In this document: positions 12,183-21,765 of the stretch, piece after piece
Numbering within the stretch: the stretch's first letter is position 1
How the letters are laid out: each line of letters begins with the position of its first letter
Assembly: GCA_903873715.1 (NCBI GenBank)
Contig: CAIQPS010000005.1
Span: 1 to 61,143 of the forward strand
DNA: 61,143 bases
From: an uncultured Actinomycetes bacterium
GTDB taxonomy: Bacteria > Actinomycetota > Thermoleophilia > RBG-16-64-13
Direction of reading: 5' to 3'
The notes under the pieces: generated by a model
The model's database searches: none
Told to the model about the DNA's origin: nothing
The model's input: only the letters and a program-made list of their open reading frames with translations
Position numbers and translations under genes: made by a program

Positions 12183-13343
12183 CTACGGCCGCACCGCCAT
12201 GTTGCGGTACACCCGCTCCATGTCCTCCCGGGTGAACTTCCGCGGGTTGTTGTTCCACAGGCGCCCCTGGGTCATGGCGCCCTCCACCAAGCCGGGGATG
12301 GCCGACTCCGGGATGTCCACGTCGCTGAGGTACTGCGGCACGTCCAGATCGGCGGCCAGTTGGCGCAGCGCCGCCAGGGTCTTGCGGGCGCCCTCGCCGT
12401 CGGAGAGGCCGTCCATGTTCTCGCCCATGGCCTCGCCTATCTCCTTGAACCACTTCTGGCAGGCCAGCATGTTGAGCTCCATGGCCCAGGGCAGCACCAT
12501 CGTGTTGGCGATGCCGTGAGCGATGTGGAACATACCGCCGATGGGGTACGACAGCGCGTGCACCGCGCCCACGCCCGCGTTACCGAAGGCGATGCCGCCC
12601 ATCATGGAGCCGATGGCCATGTTCTCGCGCGCCCACATGTTGCCGCCGTCGTAGACCGCGGTGCGGATGCTCTTGCTGATGAGTCTGATCCCCTCGAGGG
12701 CCAGCGAGTCGGTGTGCATGGTGGCGTTCACCGAGATGTAGGCCTCGATGTTGTGGATGAGGGCGTCCATGCCGGAGGCCGCCGTCACTCCGGGCGGGCA
12801 GCTCACGGTGAGGTTCGGGTCGATGAGGGCGATGTTGGGCATGAGGAACGGGCTGACGACGCCCTGCTTCACGTTCAGCTTCTCGTTGGCGAAGATGGCG
12901 ATGGCCGTACATTCCGACCCGGTGCCGGCCGTGGTCGGCACGGCGATGATGGGCAGGCCCTTGCGGGGGACCTTGTCCACGCCCACGTAGTCGTAGATCG
13001 TGGCGCCGCTGTTGACCAGCACCGCGACCGCTTTGGCCACGTCTATGGGCGACCCGCCGCCGAAGCCAACGACGATGTCGTAGCCTTCCTTCTCGGCGAG
13101 GGTCACGATCTCCTGGACACTGTCCATGGGAGGCTCGGGCACCGAATGGTCGAAGGTGCCCACCTCGAGGCCGGCCTCCTTCAAGACCCGCTCCATCAGC
13201 GGGAGCATCCCCGCGCCGCACACTCCCTTGTCCGTGATGATGAGGGCCTTGGTGCCTCCCAGCTTCCGGGCCTCCTCACCGAGATGGTCTATCGACCCGA
13301 TGCCGGTGATGAGCGTTTTCGGCTGGCGGTGGATGCGGATCAT
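12183..13343 (-). CDS. Iron-containing alcohol dehydrogenase, probable 4-hydroxybutyrate dehydrogenase
   Basis: A 386-residue group III (Fe-type) alcohol dehydrogenase. GGGSPIDVAK is the NAD(P)-binding motif, and GMDALIHNIEAY, AVHALSYPIG and HIAHGIAN supply the metal-binding Asp and His residues. On its own the family could act on many alcohols. Its place as the last gene after a 4-hydroxybutyrate CoA-transferase and 4-hydroxybutyryl-CoA dehydratase matches AbfH/4HbD of clostridial 4-aminobutyrate fermentation, which interconverts succinate semialdehyde and 4-hydroxybutyrate. A 27-base gap separates it from the CoA-transferase gene and a strong terminator follows. Confidence 0.85.
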   Translation of the reverse strand: MIRIHRQPKTLITGIGSIDHLGEEARKLGGTKALIITDKGVCGAGMLPLMERVLKEAGLEVGTFDHSVPEPPMDSVQEIVTLAEKEGYDIVVGFGGGSPIDVAKAVAVLVNSGATIYDYVGVDKVPRKGLPIIAVPTTAGTGSECTAIAIFANEKLNVKQGVVSPFLMPNIALIDPNLTVSCPPGVTAASGMDALIHNIEAYISVNATMHTDSLALEGIRLISKSIRTAVYDGGNMWARENMAIGSMMGGIAFGNAGVGAVHALSYPIGGMFHIAHGIANTMVLPWAMELNMLACQKWFKEIGEAMGENMDGLSDGEGARKTLAALRQLAADLDVPQYLSDVDIPESAIPGLVEGAMTQGRLWNNNPRKFTREDMERVYRNMAVRP

Positions 13344-13370
13344 GGTCTCTGCCCCTTCTGGTGGATACGT

Positions 13371-14693
13371 CTAGAACGCCACACGGCCGGCACCGTAGAG
13401 CCGGGCCGCTTCTTCCTTGATCTGTTCGCGGAAATCCGGATGGGCGATGTCGATGAGCGCCCGCGCCCGCTCCCGCAGGTTCTTGCCGCGCAGATGCGCG
13501 ACCCCGAACTCGGTGACCACGTAGTCGACGTCGGCCCGCATGGTGGTGACGGCGGCCCCGGCGGCCAGGCACGGCGCGATGCGGGAGACGGTGCCGTTCT
13601 TGGCCGTCGCCGACAGCGCGATGATGGCCTTGCCGCCCTTGCTGCGAGCGGCCCCACGCATGAAGTCAACCTGCCCGCCGATGCCTGAGTACTGGAGCGG
13701 CCCGATGGTGTCGGCCGCCACCTGACCCTGCAGGTCGATCTCCAGGGCCGAGTTGATGGCCACCACGTCGTCGTTCTGGCCGATCACATACGGATCGTTC
13801 ACATAACTGGCCGGGAACATGTTCACGAGCGGGTTGTCGTCCACGAAGTCGTAGAGCCGCCGCGTGCCCATGAGGAAGTTGGCCACCATCTTGCCGGGGT
13901 GCACGGTCTTGTGCTGGTTCGTTATGACGCCCTGCTCGTACAGGGTCACCACGCCGTCGCTGAACATCTCGCTGTGGATGCCCAGTTCGTTCTTCTCGTG
14001 CAGGAAGAGCAGCACCGCGTCGGGGATGGCCCCGATGCCGAGTTGCAGGCAGGCGCCGTCCGCCACCAGTCCGGCTATGTTCCGCCCGATGGCCTCCTCG
14101 ACGGGGCCGATCGCCGGCGGCGCCAGTTCCACGAGCGGAATGTCGGCCTCCACGACGTGGTCGATCTTGGAGACGTGGATGAACGAGTCCCCGTGGGTCC
14201 GCGGCATATGCCGGTTCACCTGGGCGACGACGATCTTGGACGCGAGAGCAGCCGGCTTGGTGTAGTCGACGGAGATGCCGAACGAGCAGAGGCCGTGCTT
14301 GTCCGGAGGCGACACCTGGATCAACGCGACGTCCGGCGGGAGATAGCCCTCGGAGAACAGCTTGGCCAGCTGATGGAAGAACACCGGCACGTAGTCGCCA
14401 CGGCCGCTGTTGACCGCCTCCCGGGCGGAGGCGCCCACGAACAGCGAGTTGTGGAAGAACGACTCGGCGTACTCGGGCCGGCAGTACGCGCTCTTGGCCA
14501 TGGCCACCATGTGGCTGATCTCCACGTCCCGCAGGTCGCCGGCGCGGGCCACGAGCGCGTCCACGAGCGCCAGCGGCTCGCCGCACGCATGCCCGATGAC
14601 AACCCTGTCGCTCGATTTGACGCAGGCCAGCGCCTCGGCGGCGGTGGTCCGCTTGCGGTCGTACTCGCTCTTCCAATCCATGTGTGTCGTCAC
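13371..14693 (-). CDS. abfT: 4-hydroxybutyrate CoA-transferase
   Basis: A 440-residue member of the acetyl-CoA hydrolase/transferase family. It moves CoA from acetyl-CoA or a similar donor to 4-hydroxybutyrate. Glu242 in GIHSEMFSDG is the residue that forms the glutamyl-CoA thioester, equivalent to Glu238 of Clostridium aminobutyricum AbfT, and the length matches that family. GQNDDVVAINSALEIDLQGQ and GIGGQVDFMRGA are typical of the C-terminal half. The ATG at 14693 overlaps the end of the small CGGC gene by 4 bases. Lying between the dehydratase and the dehydrogenase, it supplies the dehydratase substrate. Confidence 0.9.
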   Translation of the reverse strand: MTTHMDWKSEYDRKRTTAAEALACVKSSDRVVIGHACGEPLALVDALVARAGDLRDVEISHMVAMAKSAYCRPEYAESFFHNSLFVGASAREAVNSGRGDYVPVFFHQLAKLFSEGYLPPDVALIQVSPPDKHGLCSFGISVDYTKPAALASKIVVAQVNRHMPRTHGDSFIHVSKIDHVVEADIPLVELAPPAIGPVEEAIGRNIAGLVADGACLQLGIGAIPDAVLLFLHEKNELGIHSEMFSDGVVTLYEQGVITNQHKTVHPGKMVANFLMGTRRLYDFVDDNPLVNMFPASYVNDPYVIGQNDDVVAINSALEIDLQGQVAADTIGPLQYSGIGGQVDFMRGAARSKGGKAIIALSATAKNGTVSRIAPCLAAGAAVTTMRADVDYVVTEFGVAHLRGKNLRERARALIDIAHPDFREQIKEEAARLYGAGRVAF

Positions 14694-14965
14694 TCCTCGA
14701 GTCTTCTGGCGATGGCGGCCGGGATGTCCGCGGGCGCCGTCGGGACGCCGTCCACGAGACGTCCGGCCACGATGATCCCCGCCGTCTCGTCCACCAGCTG
14801 GTGGTCGGAGGCGCAGGCCCGGGCGCAGCCGCTAAGCAGCACCGTCTTGTCGCCGCCCGCCGGTTCTATCTCGCGCGCGATGGCTCCCCGATCGATCTCC
14901 GGGTTGCAGCCGCCGCAGTAGACTACGTCCACCGGGCGGGGGTCGGTCGTGTCAGCCGGCGTCAC
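14690..14965 (-). CDS. Small Cys-rich CGGC-motif protein of the 4-hydroxybutyrate operon
   Basis: A 91-residue protein. It has VVYCGGCNPEIDRG (Cys17 and Cys20) and a second pair in LSGCARACASDH, spaced well for binding a metal or FeS cluster or forming a disulfide. No signal peptide or membrane segment. It starts with GTG two bases after the dehydratase stop and overlaps the CoA-transferase start by 4 bases, so it is made together with both. I do not recognise a characterised family. A role in assembling or reducing the dehydratase [4Fe-4S]/FAD site is a guess from position. Confidence 0.7.
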   Translation of the reverse strand: MTPADTTDPRPVDVVYCGGCNPEIDRGAIAREIEPAGGDKTVLLSGCARACASDHQLVDETAGIIVAGRLVDGVPTAPADIPAAIARRLEE

Positions 14966-14967
14966 GG

Positions 14968-16500
14968 CTACTCGGCGTCGCCCTTGGCTTTCTCCCCATC
15001 GTCCGGGCCGGCGCCGCCGCCCGGGGCCGCCGCCTTCGGCGGGTCCCAGGGCTTACCCACCCCGGCCAGCTCTTTGGCCAGGGCCTTCTTGTGCTCCATG
15101 TTGGACTGCCGCGCGATCATGATGCGCTGCGCCTGCGGCGAGCCGGCGCCGTGCATGCTCTCGGTGCGATAGCCCACGGCGGCGGTGCCGAGCGTGAGGT
15201 TCTCGATGAGCCTCAGCACCCGCATCCGGTCGATGGTGGGCACGTCGCACTGGCCGGCCAGGTACTTCTCCACGATGGGCCCGATCTTCTCGTCGGCCAG
15301 GTCCTGCGCCGCCGGCATGGTCACCATCAGCCCGCCGGCGATGTCCTCGGCCAGCCGGGCGATCTCGTAGGGGAAGCGGGTGACGTTCTGCTTGCAGACG
15401 TTGGCCAGCAGCATGTCGATCTGGTAGTTGCCGGCCGGCATCTCCACACCCTCGTACGAGCAGGCGAGCCCGCAGGAGAAGAGGGTCTCGTTGAGATGCG
15501 TCATCTCGATGAGCTTGTCCTTGATGTGGCTGGCCTTGGGCACGCCGTTGTAGTCGGCGGCCAGGGCGCTCGCGCCTATGAGCACGTCGCCCACGCCCAC
15601 CTTGCAGCCGCCGTAGCTCTGGCGGTGGAAGCCGGCGAACCGCTCCACCAGGGCGCCGGAGAACTCTGTCTCGCCGCAGAGGTAGACGTTCTCCCAGGGG
15701 ACGAACACATCGTCGAACACCATCAGGGCTTCCTGGCCGCCGAAGCGGGCGTTGCCCACGTCGAGGGTGTTGTCCTCGAGCTTGCGGGTGTCGCAGCTCT
15801 GCCGCCCGTAGATGTAGTAGATGCCCTCGGCGTTGGCGGGGCAGCTGAAGCTGACGGCGAAGTCGGCGTCCTCGGGGCGCATGGCCACCGTCGGCATCAC
15901 GATGACCTCGTGGGAGTTGCAGGCACCGGTCTGGTGGGCCTTGGCGCCCCGCACCACGATGCCGTCCGCCCGCTTCTCCACCACGTGGACGAAGACGTCG
16001 GGATCGGCCTGCTCGTGCGGCGCCAGCGACCGGTCGCCTTTGGGGTCGGTCATGGCCCCGTCGGCCACCAGGTCGTTGTCCTGGAGGTACACCAGGTACT
16101 TCTTGAACCGCTCGTGATAGTCGGTGCCGCGCGCCTTGTCGGTCTCGTACGTGACCGAGTAGAGGGCGTTGATGGCGTCCATGCCCACGCAGCGCTGGAA
16201 GCACGACCCGGTCTTCTGACCCAGCAGCCGCTGCATCTTGACCTTCTTGGCCAGGTCCTCGCGGGACTGATGGATGTGGGTGAACCGGTTGATGGTGCGC
16301 CCGGTGATGTGGCTGGTGGCCGTCATGAGGTCCGCGTATTCGGGCTGGAGGGCCAACTCGTAGGTCATGGCCATGGAGTTGATGCTGGGCCTGATGATCG
16401 GGTGGTTCACATAGTCATCCACCTTCTGGCCCATCAGGTAGATGTTCAGATGCAGGTCGGTGAGCTCCTGCAGGAACTGCTCGGGGGTCTTGAGTCCCAC
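14968..16500 (-). CDS. abfD: 4-hydroxybutyryl-CoA dehydratase / vinylacetyl-CoA delta-isomerase
   Basis: A 510-residue FAD and [4Fe-4S] enzyme that dehydrates 4-hydroxybutyryl-CoA to crotonyl-CoA by a ketyl-radical route. Counted from the GTG at 16500, the cluster ligands are Cys100, Cys104, His292 and Cys299, essentially the AbfD numbering (Cys99, Cys103, His292, Cys299), which also supports this start. AAAGGA lies seven bases before it. The fold is the 4-hydroxyphenylacetate-3-hydroxylase/acyl-CoA dehydrogenase type. The last 30 residues are a Pro/Ala/Gly-rich, charged tail not seen in the clostridial enzyme. It heads an operon with the CGGC protein, CoA-transferase and dehydrogenase. Confidence 0.95.
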   Translation of the reverse strand: MGLKTPEQFLQELTDLHLNIYLMGQKVDDYVNHPIIRPSINSMAMTYELALQPEYADLMTATSHITGRTINRFTHIHQSREDLAKKVKMQRLLGQKTGSCFQRCVGMDAINALYSVTYETDKARGTDYHERFKKYLVYLQDNDLVADGAMTDPKGDRSLAPHEQADPDVFVHVVEKRADGIVVRGAKAHQTGACNSHEVIVMPTVAMRPEDADFAVSFSCPANAEGIYYIYGRQSCDTRKLEDNTLDVGNARFGGQEALMVFDDVFVPWENVYLCGETEFSGALVERFAGFHRQSYGGCKVGVGDVLIGASALAADYNGVPKASHIKDKLIEMTHLNETLFSCGLACSYEGVEMPAGNYQIDMLLANVCKQNVTRFPYEIARLAEDIAGGLMVTMPAAQDLADEKIGPIVEKYLAGQCDVPTIDRMRVLRLIENLTLGTAAVGYRTESMHGAGSPQAQRIMIARQSNMEHKKALAKELAGVGKPWDPPKAAAPGGGAGPDDGEKAKGDAE

Positions 16501-16599
16501 GGACTCGTCCTTTCGTCGGTGTGGGGGCACCGGCCGGTCACTTCCGGCCAAGGATGGAGGCTACCACTTGCTGCATACGCAGTCCATCCATTCAACGAC

Positions 16600-16626
16600 G
16601 AAGCCCGGCCGCTCGGGCCGGGCTTC
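16600..16626 (-). terminator. Terminator hairpin after the amidohydrolase-fold gene
   Basis: GAAGCCCGGCC and GGCCGGGCTTC form a perfect 11-bp stem with a 5-nt loop, about 65 bases past the amidohydrolase stop. The T-run is poor. A second GC-rich inverted repeat lies at about 16670-16686. The rest of the 190-base gap to abfD should hold that operon's promoter, but I see no clear -35/-10 pair. Confidence 0.6.
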
Positions 16627-16691
16627 GCGCTCCACTCACTGCAAGGTCTGCGCGCCCCCGCCGGGGGGCGCCGCCCCGCCGGGGCGCGGTT

Positions 16692-17738
16692 CTACTTGAC
16701 CGGCAGGTTGAACATCTTGATGGCGTTGCCGCTCATGATCAGCTCTTTCTCCTCAGCCGTGATGTCCAGGGTGTCCATGAACTTCACGCCGTCGTTCATC
16801 CAGTTGTAGAACACCGGGAACGACGAGCCGAACAGGACGTGGTCGGCACCGCAAACCTTGATGGCGCACTCCACCTGGTCTTTGCCCCACGAGGCCGGAT
16901 GGGTCATGTCGAAGAAGATGTTGTTCTTCAGATACCTGGTGATCTGCTCGCCGGAGCTCATGTCCAATCTGAGCATGGCTTCCTTCTTCATGCCCTGCTT
17001 GGGGGTGAGCAGCTTCTGCTGGGCGAACCAGTTGCCCCCGAACATGGTGTGGATGAACTTGAGGTTCGGGAACTCCTCGAACATCCCGGAGAAGAGCTCG
17101 CGCCCCACGGCGGTCGCCTGGTCCATGATGCGGCCCAGTTCGCGGCGGAGGTTGGTCCACTCGTAGACGCCCTTCCAGTGCACCGGCAGCGGCGTGTGGT
17201 GGATCACGCAGGGGACGTTCATCTCGTTCAGGACCTTGAAGTAGGGCTTGAAGGCCTCGTCGTCCAGGTAGAGCTGGCCGTAGTGGCAGGCCAGCTGCAC
17301 GCCCACCATGCCCAGCTCCTTGATGCAACGCTCCAGCTCGTGGATGTTGTCCCTGCCGCCCCACGGCGGGAGTGCGGCATTGGCGAACAACCGGCCGTTC
17401 GACCGTTTGCAGATGTCGGCGGCCTCGTCGTTGATGGCCTTGCAGGCTTCCAGCGGAAGCCACTCCTGCCAGACCGGTACCCGCAGCAGGGCTATGTCGA
17501 CGCCGGCGTCGTCCATGGCCTGCAGCTTGGCCTCGAGGTTGTAGTCACCCTCGACGTAGTTGAGGTTCTGATAGCCCTTGGGCTTCTCGAGGATGAGTTG
17601 CTTCTTGCCCGACTCGACCGTCCCCAGGTGGGCGATCTCGCCCCACTCGCGCGGCACGCAGTCCAAGAAGGCGTTGAGGATCTTCTCGTTGCTGAACAGG
17701 TCGCTCGGGAGATGGTGGATGTTGATGTCTACAATCAC
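16692..17738 (-). CDS. Amidohydrolase-2 family protein (ACMSD-like fold), metal site altered
   Basis: A 348-residue protein of the amidohydrolase-2 family, whose members decarboxylate or hydrolyse aromatic and related acids. The fold markers are visible: an N-terminal VDINIHHLP, LRVPVWQEWLP, an HHTPLP strand, FIHTMFGGNWF and the late FGSSFPVFYNW. Two usual metal ligands are changed: the first His of the D-x-H-x-H motif is Asn6, and the Asp of the late GSDxP motif is Ser. It may therefore bind metal differently or not at all. The GTG at 17738 begins the conserved region. It stands alone, with its own palindromic upstream site and terminator. Confidence 0.78.
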   Translation of the reverse strand: MIVDINIHHLPSDLFSNEKILNAFLDCVPREWGEIAHLGTVESGKKQLILEKPKGYQNLNYVEGDYNLEAKLQAMDDAGVDIALLRVPVWQEWLPLEACKAINDEAADICKRSNGRLFANAALPPWGGRDNIHELERCIKELGMVGVQLACHYGQLYLDDEAFKPYFKVLNEMNVPCVIHHTPLPVHWKGVYEWTNLRRELGRIMDQATAVGRELFSGMFEEFPNLKFIHTMFGGNWFAQQKLLTPKQGMKKEAMLRLDMSSGEQITRYLKNNIFFDMTHPASWGKDQVECAIKVCGADHVLFGSSFPVFYNWMNDGVKFMDTLDITAEEKELIMSGNAIKMFNLPVK

Positions 17739-17820
17739 GTGTCGCTCTCGCTTTCTCGCCTGTGCCTCAGACTCGACGGACGCGCCTCTTGCGCGCCGCC
17801 TCCTATCAAACACAGCATAG

Positions 17821-17842
17821 CGCGATATCGCGATATATCGCA
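17821..17842. promoter_or_regulatory. Overlapping palindromes upstream of the amidohydrolase-fold gene
   Basis: GCGATATCGC (17822-17831) and GCGATATATCGC (17830-17841) are two perfect palindromes sharing two bases, and ATATCGCGATAT spans their junction. They lie about 85-100 bases before the GTG at 17738 and are an AT-rich island in GC-rich DNA. This is probably an operator; the cognate regulator is not identifiable. Confidence 0.45.
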
Positions 17843-17915
17843 AACTTTTCTGCGGCTGCGCCAGGGCGCGAGACGACGGGGGCCGAGCGCCGGTCCTTCG
17901 TGATCGGGGAATCAG

Positions 17916-17940: not shown

Positions 17941-18369
17941 TCAGTACGCCATCGCCACGGCGCGCGGCGCCTGGAAGAACGTCCTGGTGAACTCGCACAC
18001 CTTCTGGACTTCGAATTTCTGGCAGGTGTAGATGTCGACGCTGAAGAAGAGGAGCGGGCTGTCCCAGGCGTAGAAATGAGCGCCGGAGTTCTCCCAGTGG
18101 ACCCATCCGGCCCACCCGTAGTTCTCGGAGAGATGGGTGACGGGCTCCATGAGCACCCGCATCCCGCAGACCTCCGACAACTGCGTCAGATATCGCTTTA
18201 TCTGGTCCTCGACTATCGGCCACCGGCAGGTGCCTTCGATCACCAACCGTTGCCTGAAGATCATGGGAGCCAGGTCGGGCATCCCCGCCGAACACTGCAC
18301 GAGTTCGACGGAAGATGAGGGGGCGATCACCTCGGTAGTGGGTACGGCGGTCTGAGAAATATCATCCAC
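17941..18369 (-). CDS. SpeD-like protein (S-adenosylmethionine decarboxylase homologue)
   Basis: A 142-residue protein from the GTG at 18369, which has AGGA eight bases upstream. The conserved part begins near MPDLAPMIFRQRLVIEG (from residue 30), about 113 residues long, the size of a prokaryotic SpeD. The core NSGAHFYAW and VDIYTC lines up with the SpeD ESH...HTW and DxFTC motifs. Ser95 sits at the self-cleavage position that makes the pyruvoyl group and Cys116 at the catalytic cysteine. The usual processing His is Tyr100, and the Glu before Ser is Asn94. Such divergence is known in SpeD relatives that act on other amino acids. No spermidine synthase is nearby. Starts at 18414 or 18282 are possible. 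Confidence 0.65.
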   Translation of the reverse strand: MDDISQTAVPTTEVIAPSSSVELVQCSAGMPDLAPMIFRQRLVIEGTCRWPIVEDQIKRYLTQLSEVCGMRVLMEPVTHLSENYGWAGWVHWENSGAHFYAWDSPLLFFSVDIYTCQKFEVQKVCEFTRTFFQAPRAVAMAY

Positions 18370-18570
18370 GAGACTCGTCCTAGGATCGATGTTCCACCGG
18401 TGTGCAGCATGCACAAGTAATACGACCCTGTCCGCGGTGATTCCTTGCTCTCTTCGGCGGCGACTCTCGCACTCAAGTCTCTTGATGTTGGAACCGATGG
18501 AAGGGATGTCTATTCATGCCATTCGACCGGGGGGCCGCTCGATGCACGAGCGCCACCCGTTGAGGTGCCA

Positions 18571-20937
18571 GTGTTGCGAACGACCGATACTATCGATGCC
18601 CCCTCCACCAGGTCCGTGCTCCGGGCGCTCCGGAGCTCCGACTCCGGACGAGACCGGTTCACTCTCGTCTACCTCTCGTTCGGCGGGCTGGCCATACTCG
18701 CCGGCCTGGTCTTCCCCTCGCTCCAATCGGTGACAGGGCTCCTCATCGGCGTCGCCACGATCGTTGCGGCTGTCACCTCCGTATGGGTGCGGCGGCCGGC
18801 GGTCGTCTGGCCGTGGGCCTGTCTGATAGCGGCGTTCGTCCTTTTCCTCGCCAACAACGCGGCGAAGGAGGCCTTCCAACCGCTGGGCAACATGACCGCG
18901 AGCCGGTCCATGGTCCCAGACATGATCGCCCTCCCGGCATACGTGCTCCTGACGCTGGGCCTTCTGGGATTCTCGCGCAGCCGCGCGCGTGGCGCCGGCC
19001 AGACCAGCGTCCTTCTCGACGGCCTCATCGCCGCGACTGCGCTGGCCTCTCTGGCATGGGCGTTCGCAGTCGAGCCGCTGCTGGCCCGCGAACAGGCGCC
19101 CGACCTGGTCAAGCTGGTCCTCACGGCCTATCCGTCCATGTCCATCTTCCTGGTGGTCGTCGTGCTCAGGATCATCATCAACGCGGACGGCAAGCGGCCG
19201 CCGGCCTTCTGGCTGTGCGTCGGCGCGATGGTGTTCATGCTCATCGGCGACGGCATCTACATGTTCGCCGACATCGACCTGCTGCACCTGCCCGGGCAAC
19301 TCCTCAACCTGCCCTACATGATCGCCTTCCTCGGCGCCGGCGCCACCGCGATCCACCCGTCCATGCGCGAGATGACGGAACCGGGGCCCGAGACCCACCT
19401 CACCGCTTCAGCGGGCCGCGCCGCCCTCGTGGCCGGCGCGCTCATCGTCAGCGCCGTGCTGGCGTCGCAGCACCGCGCGTTCGCGGCGGCGGACCGCTGG
19501 GTGATGTTCGTGCTGTTCTCCGCCCTCATAGGCGCCGTCATCCTCCGCATCGTCCAGGCGCTGCGCGTCGCAGCCCAGTCGGAGGCCCGGCTCATCCACC
19601 AGGCCGACCACGACGACCTCACCGGCCTACCCAACCGCCGGATGATGGAACGGGAGCTCTCCCGGATACTTGCGAGGGGCGCCGACGAAGAGGGTCACGT
19701 GGCCCTCCTCTTCCTCGACCTCGACCGCTTCAAGCTGGTCAACGACACTCTCGGCCACGGCCGCGGCGACGATCTCCTCATAGAGGTGGCCCGGCGCCTG
19801 CAGGCGCACGTGCGGCCCTCCGACCTGGTGACCCGCATCGGCGGGGACGAGTTCATGATCATCATGGACCACGTCACCAGTGCCTCCCAGGCGCTCGATC
19901 TGGCGAACCGCCTCCGGCTCTGCCTCAAGGACCCGTTCGTGCTGAACGGCATCGAGTTCTACACCACCGCCAGTGTCGGACTTGCCCTGGCAGCGGAGAG
20001 CGAAGCTCACCCCACGGCCGAGACCCTCGTCAGGGACGCGGACACCGCGATGTACCAGGCCAAGGAGGGGGGCCGGGACAAGGTGGCGGTGTTCGACCAA
20101 TCCATGCGCGACGAGGTCTCAGAGCGGGTGAAGCTCGAGCACGACCTGCGCAGCGCCATCGCGCTCAAGCAACTGCACCTGGTCTACCAGCCGATCGTGC
20201 GGCTGCCTCGCGGGCCGAGCGTGGGCCTGGAGGCGCTGGTGCGCTGGGCCCATCCCACCCGCGGAGTGCTCCCGCCTTCGCAGTTCATCCCCATCGCCGA
20301 AGAGAACGGCATGATCTCCGAGATCGGTGCGTGGATCATGGAGGAAGCCGTAAGCCAGCTGGCCGCCTGGTGCCGCTACGCTCCTGAGATGGATGGCATC
20401 TACGTCTCGGTGAACCTCTCCAGCGCCCAGTTGCGCGACGAGGGCATCGTCGACCGCGTGGCCGACCTGCTGACCGCCCACGGACTGCCGGGGTCGTCCC
20501 TGTGCCTCGAACTGACCGAGACCATGGCCATGCAGGATCCCGCGGCCTCGGCGGCCATCCTGGGAAGGCTCAGGCGTCTGGGGGTCGGCATAGCGCTCGA
20601 CGACTTCGGCGCCGAGTATTCCTCACTCGCGTATCTCAAGCGCCTGCCGGTGACCATGCTCAAGATCGACAAGAGCTTCATAAGCAGCCTGACCCAGGAA
20701 GACAGCGCGGACGCCGCCCTGATCTCGGCCGTTGTCGCTATGGCCAAATCCCTCGGGATCACGACGGTGACGGAGGGGGTGGAGAGTTCCGCGCAGGCCC
20801 GGCGCCTGCTGCGGCTGGGGGTCGATGCGGTCCAGGGCTACCTGTTCTCCCGGCCTGTCACAGCCGACAAGCTCCTCGAGCTGACGGCCTCACTGAGCCA
20901 GCAGAGGCTGAATCTCGTGATCGCCTCCACCAACTGA
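18571..20937 (+). CDS. Membrane GGDEF-EAL cyclic-di-GMP protein
   Basis: About 788 residues. The first 340 hold roughly nine membrane segments (for example LTLVYLS...LAILAGLVF and FWLCVGAMVFMLIGDGIYMF), an MHYT/7TM-like sensor of unknown ligand. Then comes a GGDEF domain with DHDDLTGLPNRR and an intact RIGGDEF, followed by an EAL domain with GLEALVRW, LELTET, an intact DDFG and TEGVES. The loop after DDFG is AEYSSL rather than the common TGYSSL. Both cyclase and phosphodiesterase residues are kept, so either activity is possible. The GTG at 18571 has GAGG upstream; the frame stays open to 18445. Confidence 0.88.
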   Translation: MLRTTDTIDAPSTRSVLRALRSSDSGRDRFTLVYLSFGGLAILAGLVFPSLQSVTGLLIGVATIVAAVTSVWVRRPAVVWPWACLIAAFVLFLANNAAKEAFQPLGNMTASRSMVPDMIALPAYVLLTLGLLGFSRSRARGAGQTSVLLDGLIAATALASLAWAFAVEPLLAREQAPDLVKLVLTAYPSMSIFLVVVVLRIIINADGKRPPAFWLCVGAMVFMLIGDGIYMFADIDLLHLPGQLLNLPYMIAFLGAGATAIHPSMREMTEPGPETHLTASAGRAALVAGALIVSAVLASQHRAFAAADRWVMFVLFSALIGAVILRIVQALRVAAQSEARLIHQADHDDLTGLPNRRMMERELSRILARGADEEGHVALLFLDLDRFKLVNDTLGHGRGDDLLIEVARRLQAHVRPSDLVTRIGGDEFMIIMDHVTSASQALDLANRLRLCLKDPFVLNGIEFYTTASVGLALAAESEAHPTAETLVRDADTAMYQAKEGGRDKVAVFDQSMRDEVSERVKLEHDLRSAIALKQLHLVYQPIVRLPRGPSVGLEALVRWAHPTRGVLPPSQFIPIAEENGMISEIGAWIMEEAVSQLAAWCRYAPEMDGIYVSVNLSSAQLRDEGIVDRVADLLTAHGLPGSSLCLELTETMAMQDPAASAAILGRLRRLGVGIALDDFGAEYSSLAYLKRLPVTMLKIDKSFISSLTQEDSADAALISAVVAMAKSLGITTVTEGVESSAQARRLLRLGVDAVQGYLFSRPVTADKLLELTASLSQQRLNLVIASTN

Positions 20938-21765
20938 CGAGTCTTCGTCAAGCCGGTAGAGCGGCACGTCCAGTCCGGCGACCATGCGGGTGAACGGCCT
21001 CTCCGGATCTTCCTTGGTGAAGACCTCCAGGTTGTGCCGCGTGCCCGGGATGCACATCGCCGCGTAGTTCTCGTCATAGCTGCCCGGCCGCCCTGGCATG
21101 GGTAGATGGAACTGCTTTCCCGCCAGCGGCTCGAACTCCACTCCCACCCTTCCCAGAGAGCGGACGGCGAGCCTGTTCATGTACGCGAAGATGTTGTCGA
21201 TCCCGATGATCCGGGTGAGCTTGAACACGGCCTTGTAGCTGATGAGGCTGTAGGGCCTGTCCCAGGTGGGTTTACACCTGCCCGTCTGGATGTTGGACGT
21301 GAGGTTGAAGCATCTGCCCCAGTCGACGATCTGGTGGTGGAACATCACCTCCTGCAGGCCGGCCCGTTCCTGCGGATCGGTCGCGGTCAGCCTGTCGTCG
21401 ACCACCTCGATGCCTGTGAGCAGGGCGCCGTCGAAGACGACTCGCTCCTTCCGCGCCCGCACGATGCGCTTCACGTGCGCCACCACGCGCGCGTCAAGGT
21501 CGAGGGTGACCAGGAAGAGCGAATCCCGCTCGTAGGGCTTCATGCCCTCGTGGAAATCGTAATGTTCGGCGCCGAAGACGCTGGCCTCGTAGGTCCTCAC
21601 GAAATCCGACCGGGGATCGTCGCTCCCCAGGAGGACGGTCGCCGTCCCCGCCCCCGCGGAGGAGTGCCCCACCAGGTCGGCCAGCCCGCCCTCGATGGAC
21701 GTCAACCGGCTCTCGGCCAACCGATAGGCGTCCTGGGTGACGAAGAAGGGCTCACCATCGCTCAT
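20890..21765 (-). CDS. Unassigned protein, possible acyltransferase (GNAT/autoinducer-synthase-like)
   Basis: A 291-residue soluble protein that I cannot assign with confidence. The stretch VRTYEASVFGAEHYDFHEGM...PYERDSLFLVTLD...RVVAHVKRIVRA resembles the start of GNAT-like autoinducer-synthase folds (a variable first residue block, then a substrate-retaining beta-strand pair). The rest, with HHQIVDWGRCFNLTSNI and MPGRPGSYDENYAAMCIPG, is unfamiliar. There are no membrane segments or signal peptide. The gene is convergent with the GGDEF-EAL gene and the two coding ends overlap by 48 bases. A link to cyclic-di-GMP signalling is only suggested by this adjacency. Confidence 0.6.
   Translation of the reverse strand: MSDGEPFFVTQDAYRLAESRLTSIEGGLADLVGHSSAGAGTATVLLGSDDPRSDFVRTYEASVFGAEHYDFHEGMKPYERDSLFLVTLDLDARVVAHVKRIVRARKERVVFDGALLTGIEVVDDRLTATDPQERAGLQEVMFHHQIVDWGRCFNLTSNIQTGRCKPTWDRPYSLISYKAVFKLTRIIGIDNIFAYMNRLAVRSLGRVGVEFEPLAGKQFHLPMPGRPGSYDENYAAMCIPGTRHNLEVFTKEDPERPFTRMVAGLDVPLYRLDEDSSVGGGDHEIQPLLAQ

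Follow-up and report, generated by a model that had tools for sequence, protein, structure and literature searches.

The stretch of DNA considered here, hereinafter the window, spans positions 1 to 61,143 of contig CAIQPS010000005.1 (assembly GCA_903873715.1) from an uncultured Actinomycetes bacterium of the Thermoleophilia, and carries on its minus strand an open reading frame (ORF) for a SpeD-like proenzyme of 142 amino acids (17941..18369), for which beta/alpha cleavage is predicted before Ser95. About 75 bp separate the start of this gene from that of a divergent plus-strand gene for a membrane GGDEF-EAL protein of 830 residues (18445..20937; the TTG start is uncertain and the N-terminal half was judged hydrophobic by eye), a candidate receptor or output protein. 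This gene converges with, and overlaps by 48 bp, a minus-strand gene (20890..21765) for a 291-residue LuxI/FeeM-like acyltransferase, which is a diverged member of the partner family described below. The order along the plus coordinate is SpeD-like (minus), GGDEF-EAL (plus) and LuxI-like (minus). A preliminary description of this DNA had presented the first gene as a stand-alone SpeD homologue with a changed processing residue; however, across Actinomycetota and Saccharibacteria the genes of its family usually have as neighbors a LuxI/FeeM-like acyltransferase gene and one for a membrane receptor, both of which are present in the window. This conserved co-localization of SpeD-like, LuxI-like and receptor genes is a larger finding than the altered residues.

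The SpeD-like ORF is confirmed as a real gene encoding a SpeD homologue. Its GTG start at 18369 is preceded at 8 nt by AGGA, while an alternative GTG at 18414 is possible and would add 15 residues. The protein scores 37.8 bits (E 2.7e-9) with the Pfam model PF02675 (AdoMet_dc), whose gathering threshold is 25. Modeled with AlphaFold2 on an alignment of 47 relatives (mean predicted local distance difference test score, pLDDT, of 92), it is closest in the PDB to the S63A form of Thermotoga maritima SpeD (1tmi; E 2.3e-7, template-modelling score 0.78 on the target); Foldseek ranks 1–5 are all T. maritima or Aquifex aeolicus SpeD (E 2e-7 to 3e-5), and the S-adenosylmethionine decarboxylase (AdoMetDC)/prozyme structures 5tvf and 5tvm are also among the matches. 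Profile and fold bear out the SpeD relationship proposed earlier and, with conservation across the 47 members, rule out a chance ORF or shadow frame. RRM-type matches in PDB sequence searches were taken as chance resemblances of the ferredoxin-like fold.

Alignment to T. maritima SpeD agrees with the residue numbering of the preliminary description: Ser95 (codon 18085..18087, minus strand) corresponds to the pyruvoyl precursor Ser63, Cys116 (18022..18024, minus) to the catalytic Cys83, Tyr100 (18070..18072, minus) replaces His68, and Asn94 occupies the position of Glu62, where the family has Thr or Asn. In addition, Ala87 aligns with Ser55, the third residue discussed in processing. Tyr100 is no private mutation, being found family-wide: Ser95, Gly96, Tyr100, Tyr114 and Cys116 are each invariant in the 47 aligned family members (47/47), the retention of the Ser in close orthologues included, whereas His98 and His91 are each present in 45/47 and Glu93 in 42/47, and position 87 is Ala or Cys. 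A broader alignment sets 37 family members beside 32 further SpeD-type sequences: the Tyr100 position is Tyr in all of the former and His in all of the latter, and the Ser55 position holds Ser or Thr in every outside sequence and in no family member. We use the name SpeD-Y for this family, after the Tyr in place of the processing His.

The T. maritima S55A enzyme still activates and Glu62 is able to act as a base, while human H243A AdoMetDC stalls at the ester (PMC3975893). That Ser and Cys never vary speaks for a working pyruvoyl enzyme; the chain probably still self-cleaves before Ser95, employs Cys116 as a catalytic residue and has His91, Glu93, His98 and Tyr100 in the roles of Ser55, Glu62 and His68, and the earlier guess of altered processing is a sensible one. 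The loss of three processing residues might also be read as the mark of an uncleaved, non-catalytic subunit or sensor, a ligand-binding regulator of the LuxI-like enzyme, for which there is precedent in the trypanosome prozyme that regulates AdoMetDC; however, a dead subunit would not need the Ser and Cys conserved in 47/47 sequences, and we give this alternative very little credence. Whatever its function, SpeD-Y is a natural test of the residues that a pyruvoyl enzyme must have to cleave itself, because Ser63 and Cys83 have invariant counterparts in it, whereas those of Ser55, Glu62 and His68 have been exchanged.

Relatives were searched for in one genome per species, where 142 stretches encode them; the best 80 of the 142 were kept, and three viral contigs and three plasmid records were added. 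Among the Actinomycetota, SpeD-Y is carried by Acidimicrobiia, Geodermatophilaceae, Actinoplanes and one Mycolicibacterium; the other carriers are many Saccharibacteria, some Bacteroidota, Peregrinibacteria, Planctomycetota, Bdellovibrionota, archaea, cyanobacterial plasmids and phages; in several cases the name is the label of a metagenome-assembled genome. No SpeD-Y turned up in those relatives of the window organism that were sampled from its taxonomic family and class, which suggests that this organism gained the gene horizontally. The window protein had no match in a phage collection. Three viral contigs (L084, L085 and L086) encode Tyr-type members without a LuxI-like neighbor.

In a maximum-likelihood tree SpeD-Y forms one clade (100/96), apart from canonical SpeD, the pelagiphage relatives of arginine decarboxylase and putative SpeDC; the clades join at the base through long branches, leaving the order of the SpeD-type clades unsettled. 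Motif and tandem arrangement, rather than assay, identified the SpeDC references, and the SpeDA side is represented by pelagiphage sequences related to the HTVC201P enzyme, which has been assayed. Family, fold, residue pattern and clade show SpeD-Y to be a distinct, monophyletic branch of SpeD-type proteins, apparently undescribed so far and best read as pyruvoyl-type decarboxylases. The preliminary description had supposed a neofunctionalized SpeD of the kind that decarboxylates arginine or ornithine. The departure from the AdoMetDC line and the altered processing residues stand, but a reading as simply another SpeDA or SpeDC finds no support, as the reference sequences keep the His (32/32) and fall in other clades. 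SpeDC membership in particular is ruled out by the Tyr for His, by Val or Ile where the putative SpeDC sequences of L114 and L201 have Gln, and by the separate clade; the SpeDC-diagnostic Thr is Asn in the window protein. As side observations, one Peregrinibacteria genome (G335; loci L214 and L215) encodes three SpeDC-like sequences with the motif QPITTSH.S.HYFE, two of them neighboring in one locus, along with a Tyr-type member, and an Actinomycetota genome (G130; L091/L114) has a canonical SpeD in tandem with a putative SpeDC.

That some SpeD homologues decarboxylate arginine or ornithine is established, and such enzymes are widespread (PMC10407285; PMC9992855); Li et al. 2023 use a conserved Pro to tell bona fide AdoMetDC from arginine decarboxylase. 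With the position of this residue deduced from the text of that paper and our alignment, the Pro after the Trp is Asp103 in the window protein and Asp or Glu in 46/47 family members; by this diagnostic SpeD-Y should not be an AdoMetDC. Moreover, Aureispira and one planctomycete possess both SpeD-Y and a canonical SpeD, and the lost Pro together with this co-occurrence argues against S-adenosylmethionine (SAM) as the substrate, which is most likely a small amino acid. The opposing possibility, that SpeD-Y is still an AdoMetDC whose decarboxylated SAM feeds the LuxI-like enzyme, draws on the use of SAM by relatives of the latter: acyl-homoserine lactone (AHL) synthases bind it, as in the RpaI and BjaI structures with SAM or S-adenosylhomocysteine. 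Further, the best NCBIfam match of the window protein is adenosylmethionine decarboxylase. However, that equivalog model, TIGR03330, scores 18.7 bits, far below its cut-off of 75.65, and together with the Pro and the paired SpeD genes this makes continued SAM decarboxylation quite improbable. In favor of SAM, a PF02675 search of the window's own genome found no other SpeD, yet its filter also missed the window ORF, which passes the cut-off in hmmscan, so a second divergent SpeD may have escaped it.

In keeping with the earlier remark, no spermidine synthase is encoded near the SpeD-like gene in the window, and the only Spermine_synth-domain match in the genome is a 560-residue open frame on another contig (L222, contig C74) with a long membrane-like N-terminal part, taken to be of the type fused to a major facilitator superfamily transporter; no ordinary SpeE was found in this genome. 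About 98 nt downstream of the SpeD-like gene lies a same-strand run (12183-17843, minus) encoding an amidohydrolase (PF04909), an HpaB-type protein that resembles 4-hydroxybutyryl-CoA dehydratase, a short ORF, a CoA transferase and an Fe-alcohol dehydrogenase. It looks like a 4-hydroxybutyrate metabolism cluster and was not seen among the recurrent neighbors of the family.

To identify recurrent neighbors, every ORF of 70 codons or more lying no further than 9 kb from a SpeD-Y gene was included in an all-against-all comparison. The strongest is a protein of about 270 residues encoded on the same strand, which is the next gene downstream, often with an overlap, in 43 of 54 loci (dereplicated at 85% identity, with at least 1 kb downstream), the gaps between the two genes ranging from −4 to +11 nt in the ten loci measured. 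A profile of this partner matches 69 of the 5057 ORFs scanned, 68 of which adjoin a SpeD-Y gene, the remaining one being the window's copy. A profile built without the copies from the window and L012 still recovers the window's LuxI-like protein (E 3.3e-8; 1e-6 in a single pairwise comparison). Across 296 sampled Actinomycetota genomes, SpeD-Y is present in three, two of which have strong partner matches and the third none; the other partner matches, in genomes without SpeD-Y, are weak (E 1e-6 to 1e-11). Among the 14 genomes with a SpeD-Y locus lacking a complete partner, three have one after all (contig-end or second-locus cases); in the other 11, mostly outside the Actinomycetota, the genome search found none.

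Partner members match TIGR03694 (exosort_acyl) in 24 of 31 cases, with a best value of 5.9e-8, and their best values for Autoind_synth and FeeM are 3.9e-5 and 1.3e-4, respectively; Acetyltransf_5 and TraI also match, and most of all these matches fall below the curated cut-offs. For a model of the window's copy (pLDDT 81), Foldseek ranks 1–8 are all AHL synthases, and the structural Z-scores descend from RpaI (14.2) through BjaI and LasI (13.3 each), MesI (13.1) and FeeM (12.2) to the best plain GNAT (11.1). By this model the partner is LuxI/FeeM-like in fold, an AHL as its product being a conjecture. When the partner profile was run against PDB sequences, nothing but ferritin-type matches came up, which we dismissed as chance.

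A GNAT-fold protein coupled so tightly to SpeD-Y could be a maturation factor that binds the proenzyme, drives its self-cleavage and replaces the lost processing residues, as the GNAT-fold PanZ drives the maturation of the pyruvoyl-dependent PanD (PMC4410942). This would account for the absent equivalents of Ser55, Glu62 and His68, and a two-domain GNAT also precedes the relative on an Acaryochloris plasmid. However, the same SpeD-Y residues occur in genomes without a found partner (11 of the 14 lacking a complete one at the locus), the partner exceeds a minimal GNAT in size and is nearest in fold to AHL synthases, and the receptor-type neighbors would be left unexplained; accordingly, we consider a PanZ-like role improbable. 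The Acaryochloris marina locus itself (plasmid pREC2; L227:1908-3357), in which the two-domain GNAT acetyltransferase precedes a Tyr-type SpeD relative, is a second, different GNAT pairing, that acetyltransferase not being LuxI-like by profile.

Membrane GGDEF-EAL genes adjoin the pair in about 40 loci, lying upstream on the same strand, upstream and divergent, or downstream and convergent, and 40 of the 44 EAL matches in the searched flanks adjoin it; among dereplicated loci whose flanks each extend for 3.5 kb or more, the adjacency is seen in 15–16 of 33. The convergent overlap of LuxI-like and GGDEF-EAL genes recurs in other loci (e.g., L008 and L019) and is kept in the window with the SpeD-like gene on the other side; thus, the three genes are retained together there despite the changed order. 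In about 10 loci a histidine kinase adjoins instead: in Saccharibacteria and Mycolicibacterium sphagni the gene for a membrane histidine kinase begins tens of bases after the LuxI-like gene, and in most Saccharibacteria loci a response regulator lies divergently upstream. A hidden Markov model search for a sensor domain common to the GGDEF-EAL proteins and the Saccharibacteria kinases linked nothing except ORFs in L017 and L054, and lends no support to shared ligand sensing by the two.

These neighbors bear on whether SpeD-Y simply provides polyamines in the ordinary way, as one more pyruvoyl decarboxylase of amino acids that emerged as SpeDA and SpeDC did and whose neighbors are coincidental or only regulatory. 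SpeD homologues of the arginine and ornithine decarboxylase types are widespread (PMC10407285), and partner-less members exist, one of which, in a planctomycete, adjoins a PF02274 (arginine deiminase/amidinotransferase) gene and a permease-like gene; this single locus hints at an arginine- or ornithine-like substrate. Nevertheless, the recurrent neighbors are the LuxI-like gene and the receptors, with no polyamine genes among them, and SpeD-Y lies in a separate clade that has lost the His, making a plain polyamine role unlikely in our view.

The simplest explanation for an amine producer lying beside a membrane receptor and an enzyme of the N-acyltransferase type is the synthesis and perception of a signal. 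Hence, we tentatively propose, as a possibility that falls somewhat short of probable, that SpeD-Y decarboxylates a small amino acid, that the LuxI/FeeM-like partner acylates the resulting amine with acyl-coenzyme A or acyl-acyl carrier protein, and that the N-acyl-amine or AHL-like product is a signal. This would be sensed by the neighboring membrane GGDEF-EAL protein or, in Saccharibacteria, by the membrane histidine kinase with its response regulator. The operon-like pairing and the receptor-type neighbors are observed, while we infer the cleavage, the substrate, the acylation, the signaling and the order of steps. In favor of the proposal, the distance matrices of SpeD-Y and its partner correlate (r 0.51, with 0/1000 permutations as high), although this mirror correlation has no species-tree control. 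Several observations weigh against it. Three SpeD processing helpers (Ser55, Glu62 and His68) are gone, and cleavage may fail. Curated profiles match the partner weakly: the best relative reaches 23.7 bits where Autoind_synth requires 24, and no Pfam family is matched by the copy in the window. The GGDEF-EAL gene splits the pair in the window, and about half of the long-flank loci have no such gene adjacent. Finally, SpeD-Y occurs without a found partner in Bacteroidota, Peregrinibacteria, Planctomycetota, Bdellovibrionota, archaea and phage contigs, and its product must therefore serve another use there.

A bolder extension, which we regard as rather doubtful, is that the module constitutes a new N-acyl-amine or AHL-like signal system, read by GGDEF-EAL proteins in Actinomycetota and by histidine kinases in Saccharibacteria, and that the signal might pass between them; Saccharibacteria include epibionts of Actinomycetota. 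If true, the proposed pathway would add a decarboxylate-then-acylate logic to bacterial signaling, in phyla with little-known small-molecule signaling, and would link it directly to cyclic di-GMP and two-component output. The annotation of such genes as AdoMetDC in spermidine biosynthesis (e.g., in the record of the Acaryochloris relative) is probably wrong. Literature searches, with most subscription papers and supplements beyond their reach, returned no description of a SpeD-like/LuxI-like pair. Saccharibacteria, acyltransferases and GNAT proteins go unmentioned in the text of PMC10407285, as do Acidimicrobiia, Actinoplanes, Blastococcus, decarboxylases and GGDEF in PMC13136126 (2026), on AHL signaling in Actinomycetota.

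Among known systems, SpeD-Y shares with the class 1b SpeD of T. maritima (TM0655; 1tmi/1vr7/1tlu) the fold, the length, and the positions of the pyruvoyl-precursor Ser and catalytic Cys, but differs in the replacement of His68 by Tyr, Glu62 by Thr or Asn, Ser55 by Ala and the Pro after the Trp by Asp or Glu, and in having no adjoining spermidine synthase. Like SpeDA and SpeDC (PMC10407285; PMC9992855), it is SpeD-derived, has Thr before the Ser in most members and has lost the AdoMetDC-specific Pro; in contrast, the SpeDA/SpeDC references keep the processing His and a Ser or Thr at the Ser55 position and belong to other clades, and their published cases sit in polyamine gene clusters. The PanD–PanZ system likewise combines a pyruvoyl-type proenzyme with a GNAT-fold protein, but the PanD fold is different, and a role in maturation for the SpeD-Y partner is a conjecture by analogy. 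The LuxI-type AHL synthases (RpaI, BjaI, LasI and EsaI) and FeeM have in common with the partner the fold and a sub-threshold sequence similarity; however, while LuxI-type synthases go with LuxR, the partner goes instead with a decarboxylase-like gene and a GGDEF-EAL protein or histidine kinase.
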